This document shows positions 1 to 50,100 of a DNA stretch of 64,000 nucleotides, piece by piece. Made by a program: the position numbers and the translations under genes. How positions within the stretch are numbered: the stretch's first letter is position 1; each line of letters starts with the position of its first letter. The DNA is taken from contig VIIQ02000601.1 of the NCBI GenBank assembly GCA_007449985.2, positions 1 through 64,000 of the forward strand, given 5' to 3'. The notes under the pieces are model-generated. The model did not search any database. It saw only the letters and a program-made list of their open reading frames with translations, and was not told where the DNA came from. This DNA comes from Desmodesmus armatus (taxonomy: Eukaryota; Chlorophyta; Chlorophyceae; Sphaeropleales; Scenedesmaceae).

Positions 1-1132
1 GCAGTGCTACCTGGGCAGACTGATCGCACTCACTTGTCACTCGCTCTGCTGCGCTGTTTTTTGCCATCTTGCTGCGCGTTCCAGGCAGGCTGGTGTCGCG
101 GACCTGCATAATCCGCAGCGGTGCGTGTACCAAAAGTGTGTTTTTTTGTGCATTGTGAGAGTCTATCGGTGCAGCGGGGCCATAGACGCCTCAGCTGACT
201 TCAGACTTGAGCAGATGCTAGTGATGTCTGGCGCGAAACTTCCAAAGGGCTTGCGTGCAGCTCTCGAAAGCAAAATGAATGACTTATGAATGCTTTAAGA
301 GGACCTGTCAAGCACGTCACACTGGCACTGGCCTTATCGCGACAAGCCCGCCACACCTGGAAAGCTGGCAGTCTCTGCAGATTGCTTGCTGTTCCTGCTG
401 TGGGCACCGGCTGCTCTCCAGACGCCTGCTGTTCGTTGAATGCTTGATTTACTACAAACTGACGTTGCTACAGAGGGTGATGTTGATGTAGCGCGGACCA
501 TTGGCCTTTGAACAGGGGTGAAGTTGGCTTGGATGCTTCCAGGTTGCTTTCCTTGCGCAGCAAATGAACTCGTTTCGTACTCAATATTATAGCATTCGGC
601 CTCGATCATGCCTGGTTGCACAGCTGTGAAAGCACAGCTGCTAACAGTGCAATACCAGGCACAGTTGACATGACATAACTCCCAGTAGTGCCTGTCTCAA
701 GCACAATGAGGTAAAGATGGGCATCTAAGCTGCAAACTCTCAACACACATACCAGTTTATGTGACAGAATCAATGATTGGACAGCTGCTGTGTGTGCTGC
801 CTGCCCAACAGTACACCTGGGTGGGGGCCAGTGGCACTTCCAACACCCCTCTCACACACAACCCTGATAACTACATTGATCAAACTTGCAACAACTACAT
901 TGAGGGCTGTGCTTTGAATAAACACAGGCTGCACTACATCTTGTTAGCTCAGCGGATGCACTGGCCACAGATCATGAAGACACTGATGCTCACCACAGCA
1001 GTGGCTGCAGCTGAACCCTAAACCCTATAGGTGGCATACCCTGGGAACACACACCCCATGCGCAGCCATGTGCAGGCTTGGACAGCAAACTGCTGCCATG
1101 CTGCTGCTGCATCTGCTGCATGCGCTGACGCC

Positions 1133-3365
1133 TTAGCGGTCGCCTGCATTCGGCCAGTCGCCGTTGCTGCCATGGTGCTGCTTGCCATCTGGATCTGTGA
1201 ACCACTCATCCTCTCCGGATGCGATAATCCTCAACACAGTGGGCAGCTTGCGCATGTTGCGCTCCACCCCCCGGTGGTACAGCTCCCCCTTCTCAAACCT
1301 CTTAAACACACCCTTGAAGATGCGCCGCAGGGACTCACCCGAGAACACAACCCCATGGCAGCATTCATCAAACACCTTGTCTGTTGCTGCTCCCTTGACT
1401 GCACCAATGGAGTGCTCCACCAGCTGATCAATGTCTGAGCTGTGGGGGGGGAAGCGAAGGCGGCAGCCTTCAGGCAGGGTGATGGTGCCGTAGCGGGACT
1501 CGATGATCTTATCCGGGATGTTGGCCTGTATGCGGACGTTGTCCATCATGATGATGGGGTCCTCACCAGTCACATTCCTAAACTTCTCCACCATCTTGTA
1601 CAGGTTGTCAGCTACCTCATCAGTAACAGTGCTTGCTGCGTCTGCTCCATCCTTCCTCTGCAGGTCACGGCATGGCGGAGCAACAGCACGGCAACAGCAA
1701 AGGGAGGGAGGCATTGATGAGGAAGGCCTTGGCAGCACATCAACTGGGGGGGATCAGGGTGAAGAAGCCACACAACAGAGCAGTGACGTGGGTGGACCGT
1801 GCTGGCAATGAGTATAAGTTGCTCAAGTCAGAGAAGAAGCAGCAGTTCATGTGGTGCACTACGGAGTGTCGGGACAAGGTGCAACACTTCAAGTTGTGCA
1901 CCCTGACGCTGTGCGCAAGCCTGTCGCACTCATGTGCTGCTTCTGCACTTATGAAAGTGGGGCATGGGAGGCTGCTGGCCGTCCTGTTATCCCCCCTGCA
2001 GAGTGGAAGTTCATGCAGCTAGTTGCGCAGCAGCAGCAGTCACAGGAGTGGTGTTGGCAGGTGCACTTGACCGATTGCCATGGTCGCATTGATTTCTACA
2101 ACTGGAAGCGCGACGTGTATCTACAAGTTGACGATTCTTATCACTTCAGGGATGGTTGCAAGAATAAGGCATTTGAGCGTGATTTCAAGTGCAACAAGGT
2201 ATGCTGCGAGCGCCGCCTGGCGCTCGTACGCGCGCATCATGCAGACCTCGCGGCACCAGATATTGTTATGGCAGCTGTTGAATATGCATCGCAGCATAAG
2301 GGTGTTGTTTTTACTGCCAGCTACGAGCTTTCTGGCAAGCCTCACATTGAGAAGCTGTGTGCTGGGGTGGGAGCAGCAGCAGCAACTGCTGCTGATGCCT
2401 TTGGAAACCAGCTGGTCAATTTGTAACTGTGCTCACCTGGTAGACAAAGGGCTCTTTGCCTTCTTGCCCAAGCTTGTTGAACCAGCGGAGGATGTGGGTG
2501 GTGCCTGTGGTGAGTTCATAGTACACCAAGCCGTTCTTGTCGCTGAAGCTGGGGTGTGCTGACACGCATATGAAGAAGTGAACTGTCTGCTGCTTGTCCC
2601 CCTTGATCGTTGGCAGCGACACGTAGTCGTGCAGGGGGAGGTGCTGCAGGTCCACATATGCCCTGACATGCGCATGGGTGTAGGTGTTGTATGTCCAGCG
2701 GCCCTCGTCGCACTGCACAATCCTAGCTAGGATTGCATTCAGCAACGCCTGTGCGACGTTCCACTCTGCCAGCAGCTGCTTGCAGAAGCTTTTCCGGGCA
2801 GCTTTCTCCTTTTCTGTCAGCCGGTACTTCAACGCAAAACTGCGCCGCCCGAGGTTGGGATCCTCCCTCATCATGGCGTTGTACAGCTGGTGGGGGGTGC
2901 AGTTGTATTTCTGCATGACACCCTTGACAGCATCAGACTCCACCGTCGCCTGCCGCACTGTGGTGAAGTAGGATATCAGGGTGATGGTGTGTCCTTTGCG
3001 GGTCTTTGTGTGCAGCCTTCCTGCCTTGATGGCTGTACTAGCTGTTAGGGCATCTTCTCTGCTGATAAGGACAGGGCGGCCTGTGCGGAGGTTGTCCTCG
3101 ACGTCACCGTACTCCACAAAGTGGTCCCATCTGCCCTTCAATACAGGCTTGGGATCCTCTGCCAGCTTGTCACCACCAAGCTGCTTGCGCACCTTCTTAT
3201 ATAGTCTGCCGGCAAGGCCATAATCGACCTTGCCGTCGACGAGAGCCTGGGCGCAAGCCACGACGCATGACTTCCTGGTGGCCGGGGTGTGGCGGTTGTG
3301 ACCGCTGTGCACAGGCTCCTCCTTAGCTGGTGCCTGCGCGTGGTTGAAAACAGCAACAGGTGCAT
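1133..3365 (-). CDS. Tc1/mariner-like DDE transposase, copy 1 (two exons)
   Basis: Exon 1 is about 3365-2437 and exon 2 is 1657-1133, with stop at 1133. The intron (2436-1658) is GT-AG, phase 0, with donor CAG|GTGAGC and acceptor CTGCAG|AGG; joined length is about 484 residues. The N-terminal half looks like a helix-turn-helix DNA-binding region. Catalytic residues seen are D1 in QCDEGRW (codon at 2709), D2 in MMDNVR (codon at 1543) and E in QLVEHSIG (codon at 1417). This gives 41 residues between D2 and E, and the usual 'PPHSSDIDQLVE' block resembles PPYSPDLNPIE of the superfamily. The probable ATG (3365-3363) is one base out of frame with the main ORF in this copy, and no other in-frame ATG precedes the conserved region. 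Transposase identity is firm from motifs; the start is inferred. Confidence 0.82.
1672..2426 (+). pseudogene. Vsr/DUF559-like nuclease ORF, copy 1, frameshifted
   Basis: This is the same gene as the intact copy at 5848-6603, on the plus strand inside the minus-strand transposase intron. One C is missing in 'gtgcaccctgacg' near 1901-1907 (copies 2 and 3 read 'gtgcacccctgacg'), so the frame breaks at about residue 77. The 3' part remains open from about 1910 to the stop at 2426 and still contains the whole nuclease motif block. The break lies in a short C run in a copy that carries many homopolymer deletions, so it may be a sequencing error rather than a true mutation. Confidence 0.75.
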
Positions 3366-3412
3366 TTGAAAGCACTGAAGCAGCAGTGCCCAATGGCTGG
3401 GGCTAGGGTTCA

Positions 3413-5187
3413 AATGGGGTTTAATCAGGGGGGTGGTCACACATGTGAGACTTCAGTTCGGCAGAAGTAAGCCAGGTGGAAGGTCACCGCTGCTGTCTTG
3501 GGTCGACAAGTGCAGAGAAATGCTTTTCCGTAACAAAGAATCCCTATGGGGCCCTGCTAGGGCGCAACTGGGCCCTTTTGCCCCATGGCAGTTCGGACGA
3601 CATTATGGCCGTTGAATGAGAAAGTGAGGTTTGCGTTCAAAGCTCCAGAGCAGCTTACAGCTGGATAGAGCAATCAAGATTTGAATCCCAGGGGCATATG
3701 TGCCTGTGTGTTGCCTGATCAGCGCTGGGTTGTGAGCTGCTGCTGTTGCCTTGTTGTGAGACAGTTTGTTGGAGACTGAGACAGCCTGGCCTCGCTGCTG
3801 CTGTTGGCGTTCAAAAAGCTGCTTGAGAGTCAGCTCCCTGCTGGTGCGTGGGTGGGTGCACAAGCCATGCAGCTGCTGTTACAGCATGTTGTTGAGGCAG
3901 CAGCTGCTGGTCCCCTCCTGGCCATTTTCAGCTGACAGACCCCATTTTTCACATGCAGCTGCTGTGCAGACACTCAAGGCAAGCACTGCAGCTGCCTGTA
4001 CGATCTGGTAGGTACTTGTTAGCCCTAGCCAGCTGTGTGTAGACCCCTCCCATCTGTCCCTGCATTTCAAGCCTGTGGTCCCAGTGACGGTCTGACTACT
4101 TGCTGCCAAAGCGAAGGTTGGTTGACTTTCGCCGTTGGTGCAGCTGCTCGCCCGCAAGCTGTGCCAGGCTGCAGTGCTACCTGGGCAGATCTGATCGCAC
4201 TCACTTGTCACTCGCTCTGCTGCGCTTGTTTTTGCCCATCTTGCTGCAGCGTTCCAGGCAGGCTGGTGTCGCGGACCTGCATAATCCGCAGCGGTGCGTG
4301 TACCAAAAGGTGTTTTTTTGTGCATTGTGAGAGTCTATCTGGTGCAGCGGGGCCATAGACGCCTCAGCTGACTTCAGACTTGAGCAGATGCTAGTGATGT
4401 CTGGCGCGAAACTTCCAAAGGGCTTGCGTGCAGCTCTCGAAAGCAAAATGAATGACTTATGAATGCTTTAAGAGGACCTGTCAAGCACGTCACACTGGCA
4501 CTGGCCTTATCGCGACAAGCCCGCCACACCTGGAAAGCTGGCAGTCTCTGCAGATTGCTTGCTGTTCCTGCTGTGGGCACCGGCTGCTCTCCAGACGCCT
4601 GCTGTTCGTTGAATGCTTGATTTACTACAAACTGACGTTGCTACAGAGGGTGATGTTGATGTAAGCGCGGACCATTGGCCTTTGAACAGGGGTGAAGTTG
4701 GCTTGGATGCTTCCAGGTTGCTTTCCTTGCGCAGCAAATGAACTCGTTTCGTACTCAATATTATAGCATTCGGCCTCGAGCATGCCTGGTTGCACAGCTG
4801 TGAAAGCACAGCTGCTAACAGTGCAATACCAGGCACAGTTGACATGACATAACTCCCAGTAGTGCCTGTCTCAAGCACAATGAGGTAAAGATGGGGCATC
4901 TAAGCTGCAAACTCTCAACACACATACCAGTTTATGTGACAGAATCAATGATTGGACAGCTGCTATGTGTGCTGCCTGCCCAACAGTACACCTGGGTGGG
5001 GGCCAGTGGCACTTCCAACACCCTCTCTCACACACAACCCTGATAACTACATTGATCAAACTTGCAACAACTACATTGAGGGCTGTGCTTTGAATAAACA
5101 CAGGCTGCACTACATCTTGTTAGCTCAGCGGATGCACTGGCCACAGATCATGAAGACACTGATGCTCACCACAGCAGTGGCTGCAGC
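3413..5187. other. Inter-element spacer of the array unit (first complete example)
   Basis: About 1.78 kb separates the right inverted repeat of one core from the left repeat of the next. The same spacer recurs at 7593-9367, and partly at 1-1011 and 11771-12474. Only short ORFs on both strands (up to 148 codons, at 4325-3879) are present, with low-complexity composition rich in Ala, Ser, Cys and Gln. None resembles a family I know. An upstream transposase exon here cannot be ruled out. Confidence 0.6.
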
Positions 5188-5308
5188 TGAACCCTAAACC
5201 CTATAGGTGGCATACCCTGGGAACACACACCCCATGCGCAGCCATGTGCAGGCTTGGACAGCAAACTGCTGCCATGCTGCTGCTGCATCTGCTGCATGCG
5301 CTGACGCC

Positions 5309-7544
5309 TTAGCGGTCGCCTGCATTCGGCCAGTCGCCGTTGCTGCCATGGTGCTGCTTGCCATCTGGATCTGTGAACCACTCATCCTCTCCGGATGCGA
5401 TAATCCTCAACACAGTGGGCAGCTTGCGCATGTTGCGCTCCACCCCCCGGTGGTACAGCTCCCCCTTCTCAAACCTCTTAAACACACCCTTGAAGATGCG
5501 CCGCAGGGACTCACCCGAGAACACAACCCCATGGCAGCATTCATCAAACACCTTGTCTGTTGCTGCTCCCTTGACTGCACCAATGGAGTGCTCCACCAGC
5601 TGATCAATGTCTGAGCTGTGGGGGGGGAAGCGAAGGCGGCAGCCTTCAGGCAGGGTGATGGTGCCGTAGCGGGACTCGATGATCTTATCCGGGATGTTGG
5701 CCTGTATGCGGACGTTGTCCATCATGATGATGGGGTCCTCACCAGTCACATTCCTAAACTTCTCCACCATCTTGTACAGGTTGTCAGCTACCTCATCAGT
5801 AACAGTGCTTGCTGCGTCTGCTCCATCCTTCCTCTGCAGGTCACGGCATGGCGGAGCAACAGCACGGCAACAGCAAAGGGAGGGAGGCATTGATGAGGAA
5901 GGCCTTGGCAGCACATCAACTGGGGGGGATCAGGGTGAAGAAGCCACACAACAGAGCAGTGACGTGGGTGGACCGTGCTGGCAATGAGTATAAGTTGCTC
6001 AAGTCAGAGAAGAAGCAGCAGTTCATGTGGTGCACTACGGAGTGTCGGGACAAGGTGCAACACTTCAAGTTGTGCACCCCTGACGCTGTGCGCAAGCCTG
6101 TCGCACTCATGTGCTGCTTCTGCACTTATGAAAGTGGGGCATGGGAGGCTGCTGGCCGTCCTGTTATCCCCCCTGCAGAGTGGAAGTTCATGCAGCTAGT
6201 TGCGCAGCAGCAGCAGTCACAGGAGTGGTGTTGGCAGGTGCACTTGACCGATTGCCATGGTCGCATTGATTTCTACAACTGGAAGCGCGACGTGTATCTA
6301 CAAGTTGACGATTCTTATCACTTCAGGGATGGTTGCAAGAATAAGGCATTTGAGCGTGATTTCAAGTGCAACAAGGTATGCTGCGAGCGCCGCCTGGCGC
6401 TCGTACGCGCGCATCATGCAGACCTCGCGGCACCAGATATTGTTATGGCAGCTGTTGAATATGCATCGCAGCATAAGGGTGTTGTTTTTACTGCCAGCTA
6501 CGAGCTTTCTGGCAAGCCTCACATTGAGAAGCTGTGTGCTGGGGTGGGAGCAGCAGCAGCAACTGCTGCTGATGCCTTTGGAAACCAGCTGGTCAATTTG
6601 TAACTGTGCTCACCTGGTAGACAAAGGGCTCTTTGCCTTCTTGCCCAAGCTTGTTGAACCAGCGGAGGATGTGGGTGGTGCCTGTGGTGAGTTCATAGTA
6701 CACCAAGCCGTTCTTGTCGCTGAAGCTGGGGTGTGCTGACACGCATATGAAGAAGTGAACTGTCTGCTGCTTGTCCCCCTTGATCGTTGGCAGCGACACG
6801 TAGTCGTGCAGGGGGAGGTGCTGCAGGTCCACATATGCCCTGACATGCGCATGGGTGTAGGTGTTGTATGTCCAGCGGCCCTCGTCGCACTGCACAATCC
6901 TAGCTAGGATTGCATTCAGCAACGCCTGTGCGACGTTCCACTCTGCCAGCAGCTGCTTGCAGAAGCTTTTCCGGGCAGCTTTCTCCTTTTCTGTCAGCCG
7001 GTACTTCAACGCAAAACTGCGCCGCCCGAGGTTGGGATCCTCCCTCATCATGGCGTTGTACAGCTGGTGGGGGGTGCAGTTGTATTTCTGCATGACACCC
7101 TTGACAGCATCAGACTCCACCGTCGCCTGCCGCACTGTGGTGAAGTAGGATATCAGGGTGATGGTGTGTCCTTTGCGGGTCTTTGTGTGCAGCCTTCCTG
7201 CCTTGATGGCTGTACTAGCTGTTAGGGCATCTTCTCTGCTGATAAGGACAGGGCGGCCTGTGCGGAGGTTGTCCTCGACGTCACCGTACTCCACAAAGTG
7301 GTCCCATCTGCCCTTCAATACAGGCTTGGGATCCTCTGCCAGCTTGTCACCACCAAGCTGCTTGCGCACCTTCTTATATAGTCTGCCGGCAAGGCCATAA
7401 TCGACCTTGCCGTCGACGAGAGCCTGGGCGCAAGCCACGACGCATGACTTCCTGGTGGCCGGGGTGTGGCGGTTGTGACCGCTGTGCACAGGCTCCTCCT
7501 TAGCTGGTGCCCTGCGCGTGGTTGAAAACAGCAACAGGGTGCAT
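5309..7544 (-). CDS. Tc1/mariner-like DDE transposase, copy 2 (two exons)
   Basis: Exon 1 ends at 6614 and exon 2 is 5833-5309. The 780-nt intron (6613-5834) is GT-AG and phase 0, as in copy 1. Exon 1 is open from about 7534 in the main frame and includes the KEKAARKSFCKQLL and QCDEGRW blocks. Exon 2 holds MMDNVR and PPHSSDIDQLVE. The likely ATG (7544-7542) lies just upstream but is separated from the main frame by one extra base in a G/C run; copy 1 has the opposite length at two such runs. The copies may therefore share an intact start that the assembly has blurred. Function inferred from family: cut-and-paste transposition acting at the inverted ends. Confidence 0.85.
5848..6603 (+). CDS. 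Vsr/DUF559-like nuclease nested antisense in transposase intron, copy 2 (intact)
   Basis: A 251-residue ORF with ATG in good context (cacggcATGgc). It lies wholly inside the 780-nt transposase intron on the opposite strand: the ATG is 14 nt past the antisense acceptor boundary and the stop is 10 nt before the antisense donor. Residues 128-195 match the Vsr/DUF559 pattern: GRIDF (D141), LQVDDSYHF (Q152, D154, H158), ERDFKCN (D171) and ALVRAHH (R187, H189-190). The usual Glu before Val-Asp is Gln here. A Cys cluster (C76, C89, C90, C92) before PPAEWKFMQLV could bind metal. Similar proteins are, from memory, common in green algae. Activity is unproven. It could help transposition or be a separate mobile endonuclease that settled in the intron. 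Confidence 0.78.
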   Translation: MAEQQHGNSKGREALMRKALAAHQLGGIRVKKPHNRAVTWVDRAGNEYKLLKSEKKQQFMWCTTECRDKVQHFKLCTPDAVRKPVALMCCFCTYESGAWEAAGRPVIPPAEWKFMQLVAQQQQSQEWCWQVHLTDCHGRIDFYNWKRDVYLQVDDSYHFRDGCKNKAFERDFKCNKVCCERRLALVRAHHADLAAPDIVMAAVEYASQHKGVVFTASYELSGKPHIEKLCAGVGAAAATAADAFGNQLVNL

Positions 7545-9488
7545 TTGAAAGCACTGAAGCAGCAGTGCCCAATGGGCTGGGGCTAGGGTTCAAATGGGGT
7601 TTAATCAGGGGGGTGGTCACACATGTGAGACCTTCAGTTCGGCAGAAGTAAGCCAGGTGGAAGGTCACCGCTGCTGTCTTGGGTCGACAAGTGCAGAGAA
7701 ATGCTTTTCCGTAACAAAGAATCCCTATGGGGCCCTGCTAGGGCGCAACTGGGCCCTTTTGCCCCATGGCAGTTCGGACGACATTATGGCCGTTGAATGA
7801 GAAAGTGAGGTTTGCGTTCAAAGCTCCAGAGCAGCTTACAGCTGGATAGAGCATCAAGATTTGAATCCCAGGGGCATATGTGCCTGTGTGTTGCCTGATC
7901 AGCGCTGGGTTGTGAGCTGCTGCTGTTGCCTTGTTGTGAGACAGTTTGTTGGAGACTGAGACAGCCTGGCCTCGCTGCTGCTGTTGGCGTTCAAAAAGCT
8001 GCTTGAGAGTCAGCTCCCTGCTGGTGCGTGGGTGGGTGCACAAGCCATGCAGCTGCTGTTACAGCATGTTGTTGAGGCAGCAGCTGCTGGTCCCCTCCTG
8101 GCCATTTTCAGCTGACAGACCCCATTTTTCACATGCAGCTGCTGTGCAGACACTCAAGGCAAGCACTGCAGCTGCCTGTACGATCTGGTAGGTACTTGTT
8201 AGCCCTAGCCAGCTGTGTGTAGACCCCTCCCATCTGTCCCTGCATTTCAAGCCTGTGGTCCCAGTGACGGTCTGACTACTTGCTGCCAAAGCGAAGGTTG
8301 GTTGACTTTCGCCGTTGGTGCAGCTGCTCGCCCGCAAGCTGTGCCAGGCTGCAGTGCTACCTGGGCAGATCTGATCGCACTCACTTGTCACTCGCTCTGC
8401 TGCGCTTGTTTTTGCCCATCTTGCTGCAGCGTTCCAGGCAGGCTGGTGTCGCGGACCTGCATAATCCGCAGCGGTGCGTGTACCAAAAGGTGTTTTTTTG
8501 TGCATTGTGAGAGTCTATCTGGTGCAGCGGGGCCATAGACGCCTCAGCTGACTTCAGACTTGAGCAGATGCTAGTGATGTCTGGCGCGAAACTTCCAAAG
8601 GGCTTGCGTGCAGCTCTCGAAAGCAAAATGAATGACTTCTGAATGCTTTAAGAGGACCTGTCAAGCACGTCACACTGGCACTGGCCTTATCGCGACAAGC
8701 CCGCCACACCTGGAAAGCTGGCAGTCTCTGCAGATTGCTTGCTGTTCCTGCTGTGGGCACCGGCTGCTCTCCAGACGCCTGCTGTTCGTTGAATGCTTGA
8801 TTTACTACAAACTGACGTTGCTACAGAGGGTGATGTTGATGTAAGCGCGGACCATTGGCCTTTGAACAGGGGTGAAGTTGGCTTGGATGCTTCCAGGTTG
8901 CTTTCCTTGCGCAGCAAATGAACTCGTTTCGTACTCAATATTATAGCATTCGGCCTCGATCATGCCTGGTTGCACAGCTGTGAAAGCACAGCTGCTAACA
9001 GTGCAATACCAGGCACAGTTGACATGACATAACTCCCAGTAGTGCCTGTCTCAAGCACAATGAGGTAAAGATGGGGCATCTAAGCTGCAAACTCTCAACA
9101 CACATACCAGTTTATGTGACAGAATCAATGATTGGACAGCTGCTGTGTGTGCTGCCTGCCCAACAGTACACCTGGGTGGGGGCCAGTGGCACTTCCAACA
9201 CCCTCTCTCACACACAACCCTGATAACTACATTGATCAAACTTGCAACAACTACATTGAGGGCTGTGCTTTGAATAAACACAGGCTGCACTACATCTTGT
9301 TAGCTCAGCGGATGCACTGGCCACAGATCATGAAGACACTGATGCTCACCACAGCAGTGGCTGCAGCTGAACCCTAAACCCTATAGGTGGCATACCCTGG
9401 GAACACACACCCCATGCGCAGCCATGTGCAGGCTTGGACAGCAAACTGCTGCCATGCTGCTGCTGCATCTGCTGCATGCGCTGACGCC

Positions 9489-11722
9489 TTAGCGGTCGCC
9501 TGCATTCGGCCAGTCGCCGTTGCTGCCATGGTGCTGCTTGCCATCTGGATCTGTGAACCACTCATCCTCTCCGGATGCGATAATCCTCAACACAGTGGGC
9601 AGCTTGCGCATGTTGCGCTCCACCCCCCGGTGGTACAGCTCCCCCTTCTCAAACCTCTTAAACACACCCTTGAAGATGCGCCGCAGGGACTCACCCGAGA
9701 ACACAACCCCATGGCAGCATTCATCAAACACCTTGTCTGTTGCTGCTCCCTTGACTGCACCAATGGAGTGCTCCACCAGCTGATCAATGTCTGAGCTGTG
9801 GGGGGGAAGCGAAGGCGGCAGCCTTCAGGCAGGGTGATGGTGCCGTAGCGGGACTCGATGATCTTATCCGGGATGTTGGCCTGTATGCGGACGTTGTCCA
9901 TCATGATGATGGGGTCCTCACCAGTCACATTCCTAAACTTCTCCACCATCTTGTACAGGTTGTCAGCTACCTCATCAGTAACAGTGCTTGCTGCGTCTGC
10001 TCCATCCTTCCTCTGCAGGTCACGGCATGGCGGAGCAACAGCACGGCAACAGCAAAGGGAGGGAGGCATTGATGAGGAAGGCCTTGGCAGCACATCAACT
10101 GGGGGGATCAGGGTGAAGAAGCCACACAACAGAGCAGTGACGTGGGTGGACCGTGCTGGCAATGAGTATAAGTTGCTCAAGTCAGAGAAGAAGCAGCAGT
10201 TCATGTGGTGCACTACGGAGTGTCGGGACAAGGTGCAACACTTCAAGTTGTGCACCCCTGACGCTGTGCGCAAGCCTGTCGCACTCATGTGCTGCTTCTG
10301 CACTTATGAAAGTGGGGCATGGGAGGCTGCTGGCCGTCCTGTTATCCCCCCTGCAGAGTGGAAGTTCATGCAGCTAGTTGCGCAGCAGCAGCAGTCACAG
10401 GAGTGGTGTTGGCAGGTGCACTTGACCGATTGCCATGGTCGCATTGATTTCTACAACTGGAAGCGCGACGTGTATCTACAAGTTGACGATTCTTATCACT
10501 TCAGGGATGGTTGCAAGAATAAGGCATTTGAGCGTGATTTCAAGTGCAACAAGGTATGCTGCGAGCGCCGCCTGGCGCTCGTACGCGCGCATCATGCAGA
10601 CCTCGCGGCACCAGATATTGTTATGGCAGCTGTTGAATATGCATCGCAGCATAAGGGTGTTGTTTTTACTGCCAGCTACGAGCTTTCTGGCAAGCCTCAC
10701 ATTGAGAAGCTGTGTGCTGGGGTGGGAGCAGCAGCAGCAACTGCTGCTGATGCCTTTGGAAACCAGCTGGTCAATTTGTAACTGTGCTCACCTGGTAGAC
10801 AAAGGGCTCTTTGCCTTCTTGCCCAAGCTTGTTGAACCAGCGGAGGATGTGGGTGGTGCCTGTGGTGAGTTCATAGTACACCAAGCCGTTCTTGTCGCTG
10901 AAGCTGGGGTGTGCTGACACGCATATGAAGAAGTGAACTGTCTGCTGCTTGTCCCCCTTGATCGTTGGCAGCGACACGTAGTCGTGCAGGGGGAGGTGCT
11001 GCAGGTCCACATATGCCCTGACATGCGCATGGGTGTAGGTGTTGTATGTCCAGCGGCCCTCGTCGCACTGCACAATCCTAGCTAGGATTGCATTCAGCAA
11101 CGCCTGTGCGACGTTCCACTCTGCCAGCAGCTGCTTGCAGAAGCTTTTCCGGGCAGCTTTCTCCTTTTCTGTCAGCCGGTACTTCAACGCAAAACTGCGC
11201 CGCCCGAGGTTGGGATCCTCCCTCATCATGGCGTTGTACAGCTGGTGGGGGGTGCAGTTGTATTTCTGCATGACACCCTTGACAGCATCAGACTCCACCG
11301 TCGCCTGCCGCACTGTGGTGAAGTAGGATATCAGGGTGATGGTGTGTCCTTTGCGGGTCTTTGTGTGCAGCCTTCCTGCCTTGATGGCTGTACTAGCTGT
11401 TAGGGCATCTTCTCTGCTGATAAGGACAGGGCGGCCTGTGCGGAGGTTGTCCTCGACGTCACCGTACTCCACAAAGTGGTCCCATCTGCCCTTCAATACA
11501 GGCTTGGGATCCTCTGCCAGCTTGTCACCACCAAGCTGCTTGCGCACCTTCTTATATAGTCTGCCGGCAAGGCCATAATCGACCTTGCCGTCGACGAGAG
11601 CCTGGGCGCAAGCCACGACGCATGACTTCCTGGTGGCCGGGGTGTGGCGGTTGTGACCGCTGTGCACAGGCTCCTCCTTAGCTGGTGCCCTGCGCGTGGT
11701 TGAAAACAGCAACAGGGTGCAT
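9489..11722 (-). pseudogene. Tc1/mariner-like transposase, copy 3, frameshift in exon 2
   Basis: Exon 1 (ending at 10792) is open and matches copy 2. Exon 2 begins at 10012, but the G run at 9799-9805 has 7 G where copies 1 and 2 have 8. This shifts the frame between the second catalytic Asp and the catalytic Glu, so D2 and E fall in different frames: the upstream frame runs on to 9587 and the correct C-terminal frame spans 9776-9489. The lesion is in a homopolymer, so an assembly error is as likely as true decay. Confidence 0.75.
10027..10781 (+). pseudogene. Vsr/DUF559-like nuclease ORF, copy 3, frameshifted near N-terminus
   Basis: Same nested position as copy 2. The G run after 'catcaact' has 6 G (about 10101-10106) instead of 7, so the ATG at 10027 leaves frame after about 26 residues. 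The nuclease block downstream is intact and joins a longer upstream open frame beginning at 9858, which is an accidental fusion with antisense transposase sequence. As in copy 1 the lesion is a homopolymer indel. Confidence 0.72.
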
Positions 11723-12474
11723 TTGAAAGCACTGAAGCAGCAGTGCCCAATGGGCTGGGGCTAGGGTTCAAATGGGGTTTAATCAGGGGGGTGGTCACAC
11801 ATGTGAGACCTTCAGTTCGGCAGAAGTAAGCCAGGTGGAAGGTCACCGCTGCTGTCTTGGGTCGACAAGTGCAGAGAAATGCTTTTCCGTAACAAAGAAT
11901 CCCTATGGGGCCCTGCTAGGGCGCAACTGGGCCCTTTTGCCCCATGGCAGTTCGGACGACATTATGGCCGTTGAATGAGAAAGTGAGGTTTGCGTTCAAA
12001 GCTCCAGAGCAGCTTACAGCTGGATAGATCCATCAAGATTTGAATCCCAGGGGCATATGTGCCTGTGTGTTGCCTGATCAGCGCTGGGTTGTGAGCTGCT
12101 GCTGTTGCCTTGTTGTGAGACAGTTTGTTGGAGACTGAGACAGCCTGGCCTCGCTGCTGCTGTTGGCGTTCAAAAAGCTGCTTGAGAGTCAGCTCCCTGC
12201 TGGTGCGTGGGTGGGTGCACAAGCCATGCAGCTGCTGTTACAGCATGTTGTTGAGGCAGCAGCTGCTGGTCCCCTCCTGGCCATTTTCAGCTGACAGACC
12301 CCATTTTTCACATGCAGCTGCTGTGCAGACACTCAAGGCAAGCACTGCAGCTGCCTGTACGATCTGGTAGGTACTTGTTAGCCCTAGCCAGCTGTGTGTA
12401 GACCCCTCCCATCTGTCCCTGCATTTCAAGCCTGTGGTCCCAGTGACGGTCTGACTACTTGCTGCCAAAGCGAG

Positions 12475-16173: not shown

Positions 16174-17179
16174 ATGACAGGAAGGGGTCAGGACAACTGC
16201 AGGACCGGATGCCAGGTGCGCTGCACGACGCGCAACAGCACTCCGACATCACTAAACACCGTCAGTATGGCATATAATCAGTGTGTGGGAGGCACTGCTG
16301 TGGCAAACGGGCCGCGTGGTGCCAAGCAGCAGCAGCAGTAGTACTTGATCAGCACAGGCTGCACTTGATGTGGTTGCTGCCATCATGGTGGTTGCTGCCA
16401 TGACCAACCTATATCTCGCACAGACACAGATTCAGCTCATTATGATCCCAACAGCAAACAGAAGCACTCGGCTTTGCCTGCTGTGCAGGTGCCGCGGTGC
16501 AGGGCCAATGTTGTGAAGGACGGCAGCTACTTTGCCCGGCGAAAGATCTGCCGCAAGCACTGCACAGCAGATGAGATCCTTTCAGACAACGAAGTCCTGA
16601 GGTGGGCGCACCAGAGGCTTGCCTTGCCACCCTGTACAGCCCCAGGCTAAGCTGCACGCTGCCTCATATTGACAGCTGCAGCATAGACATGCACACAGCC
16701 CCCTGATACCCACTGCTGCAGCACCACTGGATGCTGTCAGCTAGCCCTGTGCAATCAGGTACAGCATCTTTTGAAACCGTCCACACAGTGTGCACAAGAG
16801 GCCTTCTGCCTCCTCCCTCGGCTTCGCACACTGGGCAGCTTCAGCTGGCAGCCCCCACGCATGCAGGACTTGCAGGACTGCCACAAAACCACACCCTGCT
16901 GTGTACTGACATTTCTGCTGCCCTGCACCACGCCCCGCAGGTTCTGCCAGCAGTGCTCCCGCATTCATCCCATCGACGACTTTGATGCATCACGCAGGAG
17001 TTGCAGGGCCAGCCTAGCAGCGCACTGCGAGCGCAGACGCATACGCGCTGCCAGGGCCGGGGATGGCAGCATGCAGGGCAGCCTCAGCCAGCTCACTGGC
17101 AGCACATGCGGCTCAGAGGACGAGGCCGGAAGCATGACAGACCCAGCGCAGCAGGCAGACAACCAGCCTGGCCACAGCA

Positions 17180-17210
<31 letters not shown>

Positions 17211-18891
17211 ATGTGTAGCCCCTGGTGGTGCTGCAGTCCTATCCCCAGATGCAGATGAAGAGCAGTGGCTGCTACCCTTGCACATGCCGCCACTGCATCA
17301 GGTGCTGTCGCTGCCGCAGTCGCCCCGCTCGTTGCGCACCAACAGCAGCCAGCAGCAGGGCTGCAGAGGCAGCAGCCCACTGCATACTGCAGCCCCGGCT
17401 GCGCAACAGCACACCCTTGCTCCTGGCAGGGTGGCAGACGTCCTCACAGCGAGGAGAACAGAGATGCACAGGTCGCAAGGCTTAGACCTCAACGCCCTCC
17501 TTGAGAGCCAGCAGCGGGAGCTCACAAGCCTCACCGCCCAACAGCTCGAACGTGCGCTGGCCGGACAGCAGGAGCAACGCGGGGCCAAGCGCAGTAGAGC
17601 AGCAGCAGGACAGGACTATATCGGCCCAGACGAGATCCCTGGGCTACTGGGCACAGCAGCAACAGCAGGAGCAGCAGTTGCACAGCCACGCGGCTTGCCG
17701 CAGCACTCTACCCTCAGCTTGCTGCTGCAGCAACAGCAGCAGCAGCGCGGCCCCTCACCGCAGCCACAGATGAGCAACAGCCTTGCTGTGGCAGCCCAGC
17801 AGCAGCAGCTGCTGTATGCGCAGCTGCGCCAGCAGCAGTCCCCACCGCCACCCCACCTGGCGCAGTCAGCAGGGGCGGAGCATCTGGGAGATGCGTTACT
17901 CGCCAATCTAGGCATGCGTCTCGGTAGCTCAGGTACCTGTGATGACAGCTTTGCTTTCCAGCAGCTACCAGCTAGCAGCTACGGAGTCGACAGCAGCAGG
18001 GATGACACCGTACAGCGACTGATGGCAGTTCTGAAGAACCTGCCACCCTCGGGAGTGCCGCTGCTGCAGCAGGTCGTGCGCCACGAGCACCAACAGCAGC
18101 TGGTCTCGCAGCAGCTGGCAGGACGTCCGTTAGCAGGATCAGCAGCAGCAGCAGCAGCAGCAGCAGGGTTCCAGCTCAATCTGCCTGCTGGTCCTCGTGC
18201 CAGCAGTCCCTTTGCTGCTGCAACTGCCGCTGCTGCTGCTGGGGCTAGTGGTGGCGTTGTGGCTTCATCTGTAACAGCTCCAGGCACAGTCAAGAGCAGC
18301 CCGCGCAACGACAGCAGCGGCAGCGGTGACATGGGCAGCGGAAATGGCACGGCCCTGCAGCGGCTGACTGCTGTGCTCAAGTCGCTGCCGTCCGGCAGCC
18401 TCCCTCTGCTGAAGACAGCGCTGCACCAGGCAGAACAGATGCAGCAGCCCGGGCTAGCTGAGGCGCTAGATAAGCAACCTAGTACGACCAGCACTTGCTG
18501 CAGAGGCAGCTTTACAGGCAGTGTTCTGCCCCAGGCTGCTGCGGTGTCAGCACAGGGCCAACGGCTGCCAGCACAGCAGCCTGCACCCCTTGGAGGTACC
18601 CCAGCCGCCCTGGAGCAGCTGCTGCTGCAGCAGCAGCTGCGGTTTGATGCAGTGCCTGCGGCAGTGTCAGCGCCCGAAGGCCGCAGCAGGAAGAGGTGTG
18701 CGCCTGCAGCAGCTGAGGTACCCTCTGGGTTGCTGGACGGGCTGTTGCTCGGCACTGGGGCTGCAGGTGTGGCGGGGTTGGGTGGTGGGGCTCAGGCGCT
18801 CAGTAGTGCAGCAGCACCTGCAACAGCTCCCTTGCTGCTGGAGCAGCTGTTGGCCCCACGGCTGTCCGGCCTGGGCATGCAGCCAAGGTGA
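16174..18891 (+). CDS. SBP-box transcription factor 1
   Basis: Three exons: 16174-16215, 16489-16601 and 16941-18891; introns of phase 0 and phase 2, all GT-AG; 701 residues. The SBP domain starts almost at the N-terminus. Zinc site 1 is C13, C18, C35, H38 (C-x4-C-x16-C-x2-H). Zinc site 2 is C54, C57, H61, C73 in FCQQCSRIH...SC. A basic tail (CERRRIRAAR) serves as a nuclear localisation signal. The intron before FCQQC sits where plant SBP genes split the domain. The remainder is low-complexity (Gln, Ala, Ser) with three conserved islands shared with gene 2: EQWLLPLHMP and two helices of the form LMAVLKNLP..PLL. Known family role: nuclear DNA binding at GTAC-core sites; the target process here is unknown. 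The ATG is preceded in frame by a stop at 16135-16137. Confidence 0.92.
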
Positions 18892-25495: not shown

Positions 25496-40378
<14,883 letters not shown>

Positions 40379-44607: not shown

Positions 44608-47167
44608 ATGCTGCATTGTCAGCTATCATCTTGCCAAGTAAGTGCTGGCGCTGTGAGGGCTATCAGGAATAAGCTCCGCCTGCTGATCCCCCGTCCTCGT
44701 TGTGCTTTCATCCAACGCTGCGTAGCTCATATGCACACCCTTGCAACCAAGAATGCAACAGCTGTTGGGCAGAAGCAGCGTCGCGGCCTCAGTCCGTCCC
44801 CTCCTTCCACCACCACATCAACGATACCCCCTGAGTGCTTCCTTGCCATTGACATCTGCAGGTGCCAGGATGTGCAGCATCCGTGGAACAAGATGGCAAC
44901 TACTTCGTAAAACGAAGGATCTGCCGTGAGCACAGTGCGGCAAAGGAGATCTGCATTGATGGGGTCGTCAGGTGGGGGTTGCTGATCTGCAGCTGCCTTT
45001 GCAGCAGCAGTCATCCAGCCATCCTGCTGAGCTTTTGCAAGCCAATCTAAGCAGCAGTATGTCGGTGCACATACATCGACAGGTTCAGTTCATGTGGCAT
45101 GGCACACAGAATGGGCTGCTGCAGCCTCCTTGTTCAAAGGGGACCAAAGCAGGAGATCGCGCCTCCCAACATGGCAGGACCACACTCCGTGTTCTTGTGC
45201 TGCCCTGTGGCCCTACAGTGCATTATGTGAGTTACCGGCAGTGCTTCACATGCAGCATGCACCAAACACACCTCCAACCCACATACCATGCTCTTGTGCT
45301 GCCCTGTGTCACATACTTCAGGTTCTGCCAGCAGTGCTCCCGCATGCACCCTGTGGAGGAGTTTGACTCAGGCCGCAAAAGCTGCAGGGTCAGCCTGGCC
45401 GCTCACTACCAGCGCCGCCGGCACAGGAGCAAGCACTCTGCTGTACAGCCCAGGCGCTACGCCAGCCCCAGTCCAACTGACAGCAGCAGCGGTTCAGGCT
45501 CAAGCACTGTCCAATCAGTAGCCTCACGGTCAGTGCAGCCAGATAGGATGAACCTGTCTGACAAGCAGGAGCAGCAGCAGGGAGGTCACATGCTGGGCCT
45601 GCAGACGGGGCCGGAGGAGCAGCAGCAGCAGCCGGGAGTGCTGCTTGACCCACAGCAGCAGGAGCTGCTAGGGATGGACCCAGAGCAGTGGCTGCTGCCC
45701 CTGCACATGCCCCTCCTGCATGAGATGCTTCCTCTGCCGCAGCCGGAGCTTGAGCCTGACAGCATCCTGCCTGTGCTGGACCAGACACAGGCACAACCTC
45801 AGGGCCCACAGCAGGGCCCGCCTGCTCTCCAGGCATTCAGCCCAGAGCTACAGACAGCACAGCCGCAGCCGTCAGCCGCCCAGGCGCTGCACAGCAGCAT
45901 GGCGGACGCCCTGCTGGGGGCAGCAGCAGCCCAGGTCACAGCAACGGAGGGCCCCGCCAGGCCAGGCAGCCCTCCTGCGCTGTGCGGCACAAAGCGCGGT
46001 AGGGCCAATGGCGATACAGCAGCTCTGGCATTGCGCCTGGCAGAGCTTGTGAGTCCCATGAACTGTGTGCCCGCAGCTGCTGAGGAACGCGCATGCTGCA
46101 GCCAGCCCCTTGGCTTGACTCGCCTCCTCAGCGGCAGCGCCAGCAGCGGCGGCAGCTACGGCTATGATGCGCAGCCAGCAGTGACAAGGGGGGGTGTGGG
46201 TGGCGCTGCCGCCACTGCTGCTGCACAGCAGCAGCTGCTGTACGGTTCGGCAGGGCAGCAGCACCTGCAGACCTTCCGCGCCCAGCAGCAGATGCAGCAG
46301 CTGCAGCAGATGCAGGCTCAGGCTGCCCTAGCAGCTGCTGGGCACAGGGCTGCCCTCCTTACTGATGGTGGGGTCCACCCACCTAGGGCGGCCTCGGCAG
46401 GTGATGTCTACTGTAGATCAGCGCAGCACCGCAGCAGCAGTAGCAGGAGCCATTTGGTTCAGCTGCTGACGGACATGCTGAGGAACCTGCCTGCGGAAGA
46501 CATGCCCCTCCTGCACCGCGTCATCAGGGGCCAGCGGCAGCACCTGGGCAACCCTAGCCTCTCAGCACAGCTGGAGCCAAGCATGCAATCGGGCTATGCA
46601 GGATACGGCCTGCCTGCTGCTGCCACCCCTGAAACCAGCAGCAGCACGGAGGACAGTCCGGATGACATGCAGATGGCAGAGCTCCCTCGCTTGGTCTCTG
46701 TCTTCCAGGCCATGCCACGAGAGCGGCTGCCGCTGCTGCACACAGCACTGCAGTGTGCCCAGCAGCAGCAGCCAGAACGGCCCTCTGCAGGCCAGCGGAG
46801 CTTCAGCAGCAGCCACAGGAGCCCTTGGAACAGTACAGGGGCCCACCCAGTGCAGTCCCAGCACACCATGTCAGCATCAGCCCCTGCAAACCCATCAATG
46901 CTGATGGCAGGTGCACATGTGGCTGTTCCTGGCAGCTTGGACGGGTATCGACCCAAGCGCAGGGCGCTGCCAGGTGCTGCTGCAGCTGCATATGCAACCG
47001 CGCAGGAGGGGTTTGCTCCTGCAAGCTCTCATGCAGGCGACATCATGATGGCGGCTGCGCCAGCTGGTTCCTGGCAGCAGCTCAGGGGTGCTGGGGCCCT
47101 GCCAACTGGCTTTGGTGTGGCTGGTAGGTCGCCTCTGATTATTGATGAGCTGTTTCCATTCTTGTAG
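44608..47167 (+). CDS. SBP-box transcription factor 2 (paralogue of gene 1)
   Basis: Three exons: 44608-44637, 44862-44971 and 45322-47167; phase 0 and phase 2 introns at the same sites as gene 1; 661 residues. Zinc site 1 is C9, C14, C31, H34; zinc site 2 is C49, C52, H56, C68 (FCQQCSRMH...SC), followed by a basic HYQRRRHRSKH tail. The ATG is fixed by an in-frame stop four codons upstream (TGA at 44596-44598). The low-complexity C-terminal part keeps the EQWLLPLHMP block and two PLL helices (LTDMLRNLPAEDMPLLHRVI and LVSVFQAMPRERLPLLHTAL), aligning with gene 1. The two proteins are ancient duplicates: SBP domains are similar but the linkers have diverged. Nuclear transcription factor by family. 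Confidence 0.93.
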
Positions 47168-50100
47168 GCTCAGGTACAGGTGGAGCGGCAAACTGCCTTG
47201 CAGCAGCCGCCCCTGTTCCAACTGGCATTGACAACAGCGTGAACACCCCAAGCAGCAGGTTGTGCCGACCAATTCTTGTGGTTGTCCTTTCTGTCTTGCT
47301 TTCTGCGCCTTTCTTGCTTTTGAGCTTTGGCTGTGGCTCCCACCATTCAACACCATTTGTTCGCGTGAGTAGCTCTTACATCGGGTGGTTGTCTGCTGTG
47401 GCATGACAGGGACCCACCTTGTTGCAGAATCAGGGAAAGGTTTGCTTGTGGCTACACATTCTCAAACACCTCCTGCTTGCAGTAGCTTGGGCTCTTTGTC
47501 CTTTGTTGCATGTTGCTGGAGACCTCTGCAACCTCTCCTTCTAGGGCATGTACCTTGTGTGGTGTATGACCGGTGGCCTCTGTTTGTTTCAACACCTTTG
47601 AATTTAGGCCTGTGCCTGTGTGTTGTGTGTGAGCCAGCCAACCACGTGCTAGAACCATGGGCTATGTTGCCGGTGTGCAACTGCTCGGCGCAGCATCACA
47701 CAGCGACTCTCAATGTGTTTGGAGGTGCCGTGTCTGGGTGTGCGGTTCTGTCGAGATATGTGTGTGTGTGTGTCTGGAAGTGCAGCATGTTGACGGCAGC
47801 ATGCGCCACCACCACTTCCTTGCGGTTTTCATGCTTGACCTGGCAAGCACAGTGTCATTCATATGTCAACTATGTCAACTATAAACACCTGTCATGGTAT
47901 CTACATCAGGTTCAGAGTTGACTCTGGGCATGATGTTGCATGTAGGCCCATGGCCACAACCTTGACTGCATCCTTGGTTGACCTCCTGCACGGTTGCATG
48001 CATGCATGCAGGGAGTGCTGTGTGATGTGCAATGGCAAAGCTCAAACTCCTGAACATGGGAAAGGCAGGTGCTGTGCTGCACATTGTGCACAGAGTGTGG
48101 CTACAGCTGGAGCCCAGTTTGCTGCAATCTTGTGCAGCTTTTCTGCTGCACGGTTGGGTCTGGAGAGTATGAACCTGGCTAGGTCAGCATTGGCCGAAGC
48201 AAGAGAGCCAGTTGGTGGGGGGCTCTGCCATTGAGCTGGGTTGCGGTTGGTTTGAACTGGGCTTGGCATGTGGCCTGTGGTCTGACAGTTGCGCTGGGTT
48301 TGAGCGGCAAACTGTGATCGGGCTGTTGTGAAAAGAGTGGGGGAGGGCTGTGGTGGCAATCAGGACGTGGGGTGGCTGGACAAATCAGAGCCTGCAGGCA
48401 TGCTGAGGCTGTTGTTGTGGAACTCAGAGGCATGGGCCAACTGGCAGGGAGCCTAGGTGGCGCATGTGCGGGTGTGAAACTGCACTTGAGAGTACTTCCT
48501 GCGGCTCAAGTCATCAACAAGTGACTGCATCAGGCGGGTGGAGGAGTCCCTGCGAAGGGAAGTGTGTTTGTGAACTGACCAGTTTGCTGTGTCTATGTGC
48601 AGCCGTGAGCTTGCCATTTTCCGAATGAAGCAGGGGGCATGTGGCAGGTGGGTTCACATCTCTCAACGCTTTGTGCTTTGAATATCACCTTTTTCTGCAT
48701 ATGTTTGTCTGTGTGTGTGTGTCGCCTGTCAGCCTCGTGCTACATTATGGGCCATGTTGTCATCATCCCAGGACTACCAACCACGAGCTGCTTGTGGCAA
48801 AACCACACTGGGGCCGTCATTTGAGCATTGTCTAATGTGCTGTGCTTTACCTTTTCAGTACCTTTTTCTGCATTTTTTTGTCTGTGTGTGTGGCCTGTCA
48901 ACCTCGTGCTACATTACGGGCCATGTTGTCATCATCCCAGGACTACCAACCACGAGCTGCTTGTGGCAGAACCACACTGGGGCCGTCGTTTGAGCATTGT
49001 CTAATGTGCTGTGCTTTACCTTTTCAGTACCTTTTTCTGCATTTTTTTGTCTGTGTGTGTGGCCTGTCAACCTCGTGCTACATTATGTGCCATGTTGTCA
49101 TCATCCCAGGACTACCAACCACGAGCTGCTTGGCAGAACCACAATGGGGCCGTCATTTGAACACTGTATAATGTGCTGTGCTTTGGAGAGGAAATCGTGT
49201 GGCAGATCCCCCCACAGGCAGCATTGCAGCAGGCTGACAGTGGCAGCATGTGGGTCCAGCGGCTTGTTCTTTCCACTTCCTTGCTGCCCTTTTGACCACC
49301 ATGAAACAACGGATGCGCTCTTGCTGTGGCCTGCTGCTGCAGGCAGGCATGTTACACTATTACTCACTGCACTCCTATGTGCCTTTTGTTGCTACTTTCA
49401 TGCCTCGTTGCTGACAACATGCATTGCTGTGTCTGTGGCAGTTGCGCTATGTTATGCTTTGCCGCTTGTCGCTATTCCAACCATGCACTTGTTGTGAGTC
49501 CGGGTGCGGAGTGCACGAACCCTGTTCAGCTCTGACAAATTTGATACCACTTGGGCTGGCTGTGAGTGGCAGCGTGTTGTCAGGCTTGTCCTGCTGCACA
49601 GTGGGGCGTGGGGGGGGGGGGGGGACCAAGATGGGACGGGTGCTGTGCCTGTTGCCGCCTGCAGGTGTGCAGAATCTGCCTTCAGGCAATGCCTTGACGG
49701 TTTGAGGCATAGTGGGTCTCTGATATGCAGTGCCAGTATCAGCTGGCCAATTGCGACGCCATCAATTTGTGTTTGTGAGTGTCATGCACCTTGTGAACCC
49801 GCCTAGTTGCTTACTGGTCTAACTTGCGTTCTGATGTGTGGTGAGGCTGAGTATGGGGGTTGAGTCGACAAGTAGTGGTGGCCAACTGCAAGAACATGGT
49901 GTTGTTTGTGTTGCAACTGGTGCCCTTCACGCAGCCAACTTTTGCGGCTTTTGCTCTGACTGTTATGTTGGAATTTTATGTGAAATTCACATTGCGGCGG
50001 GGGTACCAATCTGCGTGTCTCATGTTATTGCTCATGTTATCGCCAATGCGCACTGTGTGCAGGCACACATACACAGGATGTTTTGGCGTGCTGAAGCAAA

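Follow-up and report, generated by a model that had tools for sequence, protein, structure and literature searches.

The window analyzed here, the first 64 kb of contig VIIQ02000601.1 (C572) in the 115.8-Mb assembly of the green alga Desmodesmus armatus, carries an array of three near-identical units of ~4.18 kb, arranged head-to-tail from the contig start (positions 1 to 12472). The array alternates long terminal direct repeats (LTDRs) with internal regions (INT), each INT encoding a DDE transposase and, on the opposite strand within a predicted intron of that gene, a putative Vsr/EDxHD-like nuclease. The resulting order, LTDR-INT-LTDR, defines a composite transposon whose anatomy we regard as near certain and which looks autonomous. 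Its features in the window are as follows.

1 to 3453: INT of unit 1, truncated where the contig starts; contains the copy described first
1672 to 2426, plus strand: nuclease, copy 1, in which a 1-nt difference interrupts the frame and leaves open reading frames (ORFs) at 1633-2022 and 1851-2426
3454 to 4113: LTDR between units 1 and 2, with imperfect inverted ends CAGTTCGGCAG...CTGCCAAAGCG
4114 to 7634: INT of unit 2, about 3.52 kb
5309 to 5833, minus strand: transposase exon 3' of the nested intron, copy 2, with the second Asp, the Glu and the C-terminus (copy 1: 1133-1657)
5834 to 6613, minus strand: predicted GT-AG phase-0 intron, 780 nt (copy 1: 1658-2436, 779 nt)
5834 to 5839: CTGCAG palindrome, predicted 3' splice site of the minus-strand transposase and possibly also used by the plus-strand nuclease
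5848 to 6603, plus strand: Vsr/EDxHD-like nuclease ORF, copy 2, 251 codons, antisense within the intron
6614 to 7511, minus strand: transposase exon 5' of the nested intron, copy 2, with an N-terminal helical region and the first catalytic Asp; starts at the predicted 3' splice site CGCAG|GGCACC
7635 to 8293: LTDR between units 2 and 3, 659 bp; the same repeat occurs alone at locus L052 with its own 3-bp duplication
8294 to 11813: INT of unit 3
10068 to 10781, plus strand: nuclease, copy 3, residues 15-251, with a differing N-terminus
11814 to 12472: LTDR at the right-hand array end, with flanking DNA beyond

A preliminary description of positions 1133 to 3412 had proposed a nuclease ORF lying antisense in a transposase intron of 779 to 780 nt, with only 14 and 9 to 10 nt between the ORF ends and the splice boundaries. 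This layout was borne out by copy 2, where the ORF leaves 14 nt free next to the acceptor and 10 nt next to the donor, and by the predicted GT-AG phase-0 introns of both copies. The intact 251-codon ORF that had also been claimed is present in copy 2, whereas in the copy originally cited the frame is interrupted. Unit 1 (1-4177) is 99.57% identical to unit 2 yet requires 14 gap openings, and its small differences may represent sequence or consensus error at the contig end.

On the minus strand of copy 2, the predicted splice boundaries are a donor CAG|GTGAGC at 6614 and an acceptor CTGCAG|AGG, with the next exon starting from 5833. Read in the sense direction, the frames of the intron contain 13, 5, and 9 stops, whereas the spliced exons would form a single frame open for 497 codons, with catalytic-type residues D217, D346, and E388; the intron interrupts a conserved stretch just ahead of the second Asp. 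No Rfam family reached its gathering score in the window, hence no group I or group II signature accompanies this intron. The window array belongs to the first of four families in the genome: family 2 comprises loci L031-L036 (sequence read in L031), family 3 is represented by L051, and family 4 is known from coordinates alone. The second Asp and the Glu are separated by 41, 45, and 43 residues in families 1, 2, and 3, respectively. The family 2 transposase matched the NCBIfam IS630 (NF033545; E = 8e-5) and Pfam DDE_3 (E = 0.0047) profiles and that of family 3 matched DDE_3 (E = 0.15), all below curated cut-offs, while family 1 gave no IS630/DDE_3-type profile match. These matches weakly but specifically suggest an IS630/Tc1-like transposase. 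In a low-confidence structure model of exon 1, the helical part resembles helix-turn-helix domains, including those of Pax5 and Mos1.

The nested intron had been taken for the only one in the gene, a view that the sequence does not support. A further 5' exon is implied, and the transposase probably has at least one more intron, because the first ATG of the family 1 frame comes no earlier than residue ~148, because homologs reaching far enough share an N-terminal block that begins at R-A, at the AG|GGC acceptor, with divergent sequence upstream, and because acceptor-like sequences with a pyrimidine tract lie near the same place in families 1, 2, and 3 (by eye). The predicted 5' exon is perhaps located in the LTDR.

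The nuclease gave no sequence match to the Protein Data Bank (PDB) or Pfam. In an alignment of 19 rows, E111, Q130, D141, Q152, D154, H158, D171, H189, and D192 were invariant wherever the rows reached; the family 3 nuclease lacks Q152. The structure model places E111 on a helix and D141 and Q152-x-D154 on strands, followed by H158 and R187/H189/D192, such that conserved E, D, H, and D residues occupy a restriction-type core as in Vsr and EDxHD enzymes. Vsr and the EDxHD homing nuclease I-Bth0305I were the best fold matches, ahead of TnsA, which agrees with the Vsr-type assignment first guessed for this ORF, although Foldseek alone returned nothing significant. By the model, the algal protein would share its core fold, along with E/D/D/H-type residues, with I-Bth0305I and Vsr, and membership of the Vsr-type enzyme class is likely. 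Unlike those enzymes, the algal nuclease is encoded by a eukaryotic transposon gene and carries an N-terminal C-H-C-C set, making a zinc-binding N-terminus possible. The predicted transposase acceptor in families 1 to 3 is CTGCAG, a common form of 3' splice site, and reads identically on the plus strand. Similarity among family 2-type nuclease proteins starts directly after this motif (CR..KRR.GT..PQWK), and the nuclease relative P0018 has no Met in the ~75 residues that follow it, which hints that the nuclease mRNA may also be spliced at CTGCAG.

Relatives with the same layout were found in families 2 and 3 by sequence; in family 4, coordinates place the nuclease beside transposase exon 1 on the opposite strand, in the same order. 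In family 2 (L031) the exon ends at 2571 (GAG|GTGAGC) and is followed by a 799-nt intron in which an antisense nuclease ORF stops 9 nt from the donor and has an ambiguous start codon. In family 3, a donor CAG|GTGGGT and an acceptor CTCCTGCAG|AA bound an 848-nt intron with a nuclease on the opposite strand, leaving 32 nt free next to the acceptor and 21 nt next to the donor. Transposase and nuclease identities are 31 and 29% between families 1 and 2, 32 and 27% between families 1 and 3, and 40 and 37% between families 2 and 3; judged by these pairwise values, which run alongside each other, the two proteins diverge in parallel. Since three families with 27 to 40% protein identity have a homologous antisense ORF at the same site, the predicted layout is not due to chance.

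We also looked for transposases in which the intron site is empty, a check that the preliminary description had suggested, and found none among the matches listed for families 1 and 3. All 47 listed family 1 exon-2 matches were paired with an exon 1, always 771 nt away, as were 28 of the 30 in family 3, all at least 824 nt apart, the other two being unpaired. Profile searches of the protein database, with scoring confined to the 8000 candidates that had most words in common, recovered 19 relatives with the nuclease and 11 with the transposase. Five of these 30 (P0001, P0002, P0004, P0020, and P0021) are near-identical to family 1 or 2, and the remainder show 23 to 86% identity to copies of those families. 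None of the 11 transposase matches continues into exon 2; each reads through the donor and terminates shortly past Y[QET]V, the V of which is encoded by the donor GT.

Single family 1 insertions consist of an INT of ~3.52 kb between direct repeats of 659 to 660 bp, each with the imperfect inverted ends CAGTTCGGCAG...CTGCCAAAGCG; the repeat periods are 3.52 and 4.18 kb. The LTDR measures 675 bp in family 2, with a perfect 22-bp inverted end, about 655 bp at a single place in family 3 (653 by alignment plus 2 from the end motif), and about 677 bp, from spacing, in family 4. In the fetched loci, 13 insertions could be read at both outer ends, and every one is flanked by 3-bp target duplications, which vary in sequence from site to site. 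These comprise seven family 1 elements (L039, L040, L042, L043, L045, which is rearranged inside, L047, and L049), two family 2 elements (L034 and L036), and four solo LTDRs, L052 from family 1 and L053-L055 from family 2; L048 was left out, its right match being an INT start with small differences. One of the solo family 2 LTDRs (L055; C6:8278-9072), with CCT duplications, lies ~400 bp from a family 1 LTDR. In L034, the order is LTDR-INT-INT-LTDR with GGT at either side, and the dimer therefore lies within one insertion.

Within the fetched loci, INT-INT junctions (counted after loci that overlap had been collapsed into 40-bp position bins) take the form CCTT-(n)-AAGG in family 1, n being CA (7), CG (5), CAG (4), or CCG (1), and GTG-CG-CAC in family 2 (3). 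None of these 20 junctions lacks extra bases; three more family 1 places are LTDRs with small differences or inverted. The 2- to 3-nt extras are remnants of LTDR ends, as left by a cut-and-paste transposase, and since the junctions keep these footprints the LTDR excises and inserts alone, like a small nonautonomous element. Unit spacings, assigned within 60 bp and given as lower bounds, included at least 31 INT-INT and 16 INT-LTDR-INT among 55 in family 1 (8 of other lengths), at least 13 and 41 among 62 in family 2 (8 others), at least 13 and 1 among 16 in family 3 (2 others), and at least 17 and 7 among 33 in family 4 (9 others). One family 4 array (C193:30181-53228) has ten nuclease matches spaced 2502 bp rather than the usual 3552/4229; its nuclease and exon-1 matches are free of stops and, by coordinates, the ~1 kb expected for exon 2 is apparently absent, which suggests that a truncated unit still carrying the nuclease gave rise to this array. 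At L038 (C351:9901-15898), two units are joined via an inverted LTDR, unlike the head-to-tail arrays elsewhere. Telomere-like motifs (AACCCTAAACCCTA / TAAACCCTAA) occur within the INT at window positions 1014-1027 in family 1 and at about 3568-3577 of L031 in family 2. Elsewhere in the window, two long open frames on the plus strand encode SBP domains (16687-18891 and 44960-47167), which are not known outside green plants and thus agree with an origin in the green plant lineage, and tandem repeats occupy 34329-34727 and 48687-49184, one a short-unit array and the other a longer-unit repeat.

The closest parallel is KolobokP, an animal element of LTDR-INT-LTDR structure that was described as unique (Kojima & Bao 2022, PMC9587614). 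Its LTDRs, which measure about 450 or about 660 bp, have their own short terminal inverted repeats (TIRs), solo LTDRs are flanked by short target site duplications, and (LTDR-INT)n-LTDR multimers contain INT-INT junctions attributed to LTDR excision; it encodes a DDE transposase with a C/DxxH motif and, downstream on the complementary strand, a homing-type nuclease of the His-Me finger (His-Cys box) kind, and an "induced unequal crossover" model was put forward for it (PMC9587614). The algal families share the LTDR-INT-LTDR structure with TIRs inside each LTDR (families 1 and 2; the LTDR ends of family 3 come from one place), the duplication-flanked solo LTDRs, the multimers, and INT-INT junctions arising through LTDR excision. 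In contrast, the C/DxxH motif between the second D and E is absent by eye from families 1, 2, and 3, whose nearest models are IS630/DDE_3, and the conserved residues of the nuclease, like its best matches in a fold search limited to listed folds, are Vsr-type. Furthermore, algal junctions keep 2 to 3 element bases where KolobokP junctions lose 3 to 4 bp, the algal nuclease lies inside an intron, and the host is a green alga. That the element works like KolobokP is well supported; that it is KolobokP is not. Because the same layout is built from different enzymes, the alga probably reached it by convergence.

Insertion of LTDR-INT-LTDR, insertion of a lone LTDR, LTDR excision, and an array inside one insertion are all preserved as fossils in this genome. 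We consider it probable that the element is a paired-end transposon whose transposase mobilizes LTDR-bounded DNA, with its nuclease responsible for the recombination that builds arrays. The INT-encoded IS630/Tc1-like transposase would act on the inverted ends of the LTDR, creating 3-bp target duplications as it moves either the whole LTDR-INT-LTDR or an LTDR by itself, and would excise LTDRs from arrays to leave 2- to 3-nt footprints. The nuclease would make a site-specific break in or beside the LTDR, and repair from a sister or neighboring unit would add units and sometimes restore lost LTDRs, as in induced unequal crossover; on balance, we favor such a role in array building. Housing the nuclease in the intron would place two full opposite-strand genes on one stretch, their codons not overlapping, and have them inherited together. 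The interpretation first offered, of a homing-type endonuclease that invaded the transposase or of a two-nuclease transposon, is partly supported but missed this larger frame, the composite element. A bolder reading, rated slightly below an even chance, is that eukaryotes evolved paired-end transposons at least twice and that in the alga a spliceosomal homing intron, represented by the nuclease, became fixed antisense within the transposase, transcripts of either strand using the palindromic CTGCAG as their 3' splice site.

Other accounts of the nuclease were weighed against the paired-end reading. Were it simply a spliceosomal homing intron, the nuclease would cut intron-free transposase genes at the exon junction, the intron would be copied in along with its nuclease, as proposed for mirusvirus shintrons, and the transposon would be a mere host gene. 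The site in a conserved stretch ahead of the second Asp fits this account, as do the fold matches to Vsr and I-Bth0305I and the VSR-like endonuclease genes reported in mirusvirus spliceosomal introns (PMC12768974). However, none of the 11 exon-1 database matches, 47 family 1 matches, or 28 paired family 3 matches listed is an intronless transposase, and nuclease and transposase diverge in parallel; with no empty sites, homing could account for the origin of the arrangement and not for its present upkeep, which makes this account unlikely.

A two-part transposase resembling TnsA-TnsB of Tn7, with the nuclease cutting the 5' strand at the ends and the DDE enzyme cutting and joining the 3' strand, is slightly less likely again. 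Tn7 likewise combines a DDE enzyme and a restriction-fold nuclease within one element, although we could show no sequence relation and saw no target-choice genes; TnsA ranks below Vsr and I-Bth0305I among the fold matches, and Tc1-type transposases leave 2- to 3-nt footprints by themselves. The nuclease might instead promote retention, as proposed for TnpB/Fanzor, by cutting the INT-INT or empty donor junction after excision such that repair restores the lost copy. LTDR loss does create a specific sequence at the INT-INT junction and every family examined carries the nuclease, yet these junctions are plentiful and persistent (at least 31 of 55 family 1 spacings), and we regard retention as more doubtful than either of the preceding accounts. 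Finally, the plus-strand ORF lies antisense in an intron, and silent changes are not in excess among its young copies, as might be expected of a noncoding by-product of sequence composition; this is extremely improbable, given that three families have a homologous ORF at this site and that catalytic-type residues are invariant across 19 database proteins.

Membership of Tc1/mariner by TA duplication was ruled out by the varied 3-bp duplications at all 13 insertions. The element resembles IS630/Tc1/mariner transposons in the DN...S(P/H)D(L/I)NRPIE block of families 2 and 3, the weakly helix-turn-helix-like N-terminus, and the 2- to 3-nt footprints, and departs from them in its 3-bp rather than TA duplications, the 41 to 45 residues between the second D and E, the terminal direct repeats, and the second nuclease. 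A 2025 paper on mirusvirus "shintrons" (PMC12768974) reports spliceosomal introns that carry 334 endonuclease genes, of which 16 are VSR-like, and states that such an association had not been observed until then. The predicted algal intron is similar in nesting an endonuclease gene within GT-AG boundaries. According to that paper, shintrons lie mostly in virion morphogenesis genes and are target-gene specific (PMC12768974), whereas the algal intron interrupts the element's own transposase, holds its nuclease in antisense, and has no intronless relative among those found. Among the papers listed by our literature searches, none describes this combination, and the element is a real, conserved, and apparently undescribed variant.

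The algal element would add a second lineage whose enzymes are unrelated to those of KolobokP, whose host belongs to another kingdom, and whose repeats are of almost the same length. This would suggest that the combination of a transposase, a homing nuclease, and ~660-bp direct repeats is a repeatable solution with its own rules. On the dual-origin reading, each origin joined a DDE transposase, an opposite-strand homing-type nuclease, and terminal direct repeats of ~660 bp, and if the fixed homing-intron reading is true the transposon would unite a cut-and-paste element and a homing intron in a stable partnership. The algal element would also extend endonuclease-bearing spliceosomal introns from viruses to a cellular mobile element. 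With four families in large arrays in one green-alga genome, induced unequal crossover becomes testable.
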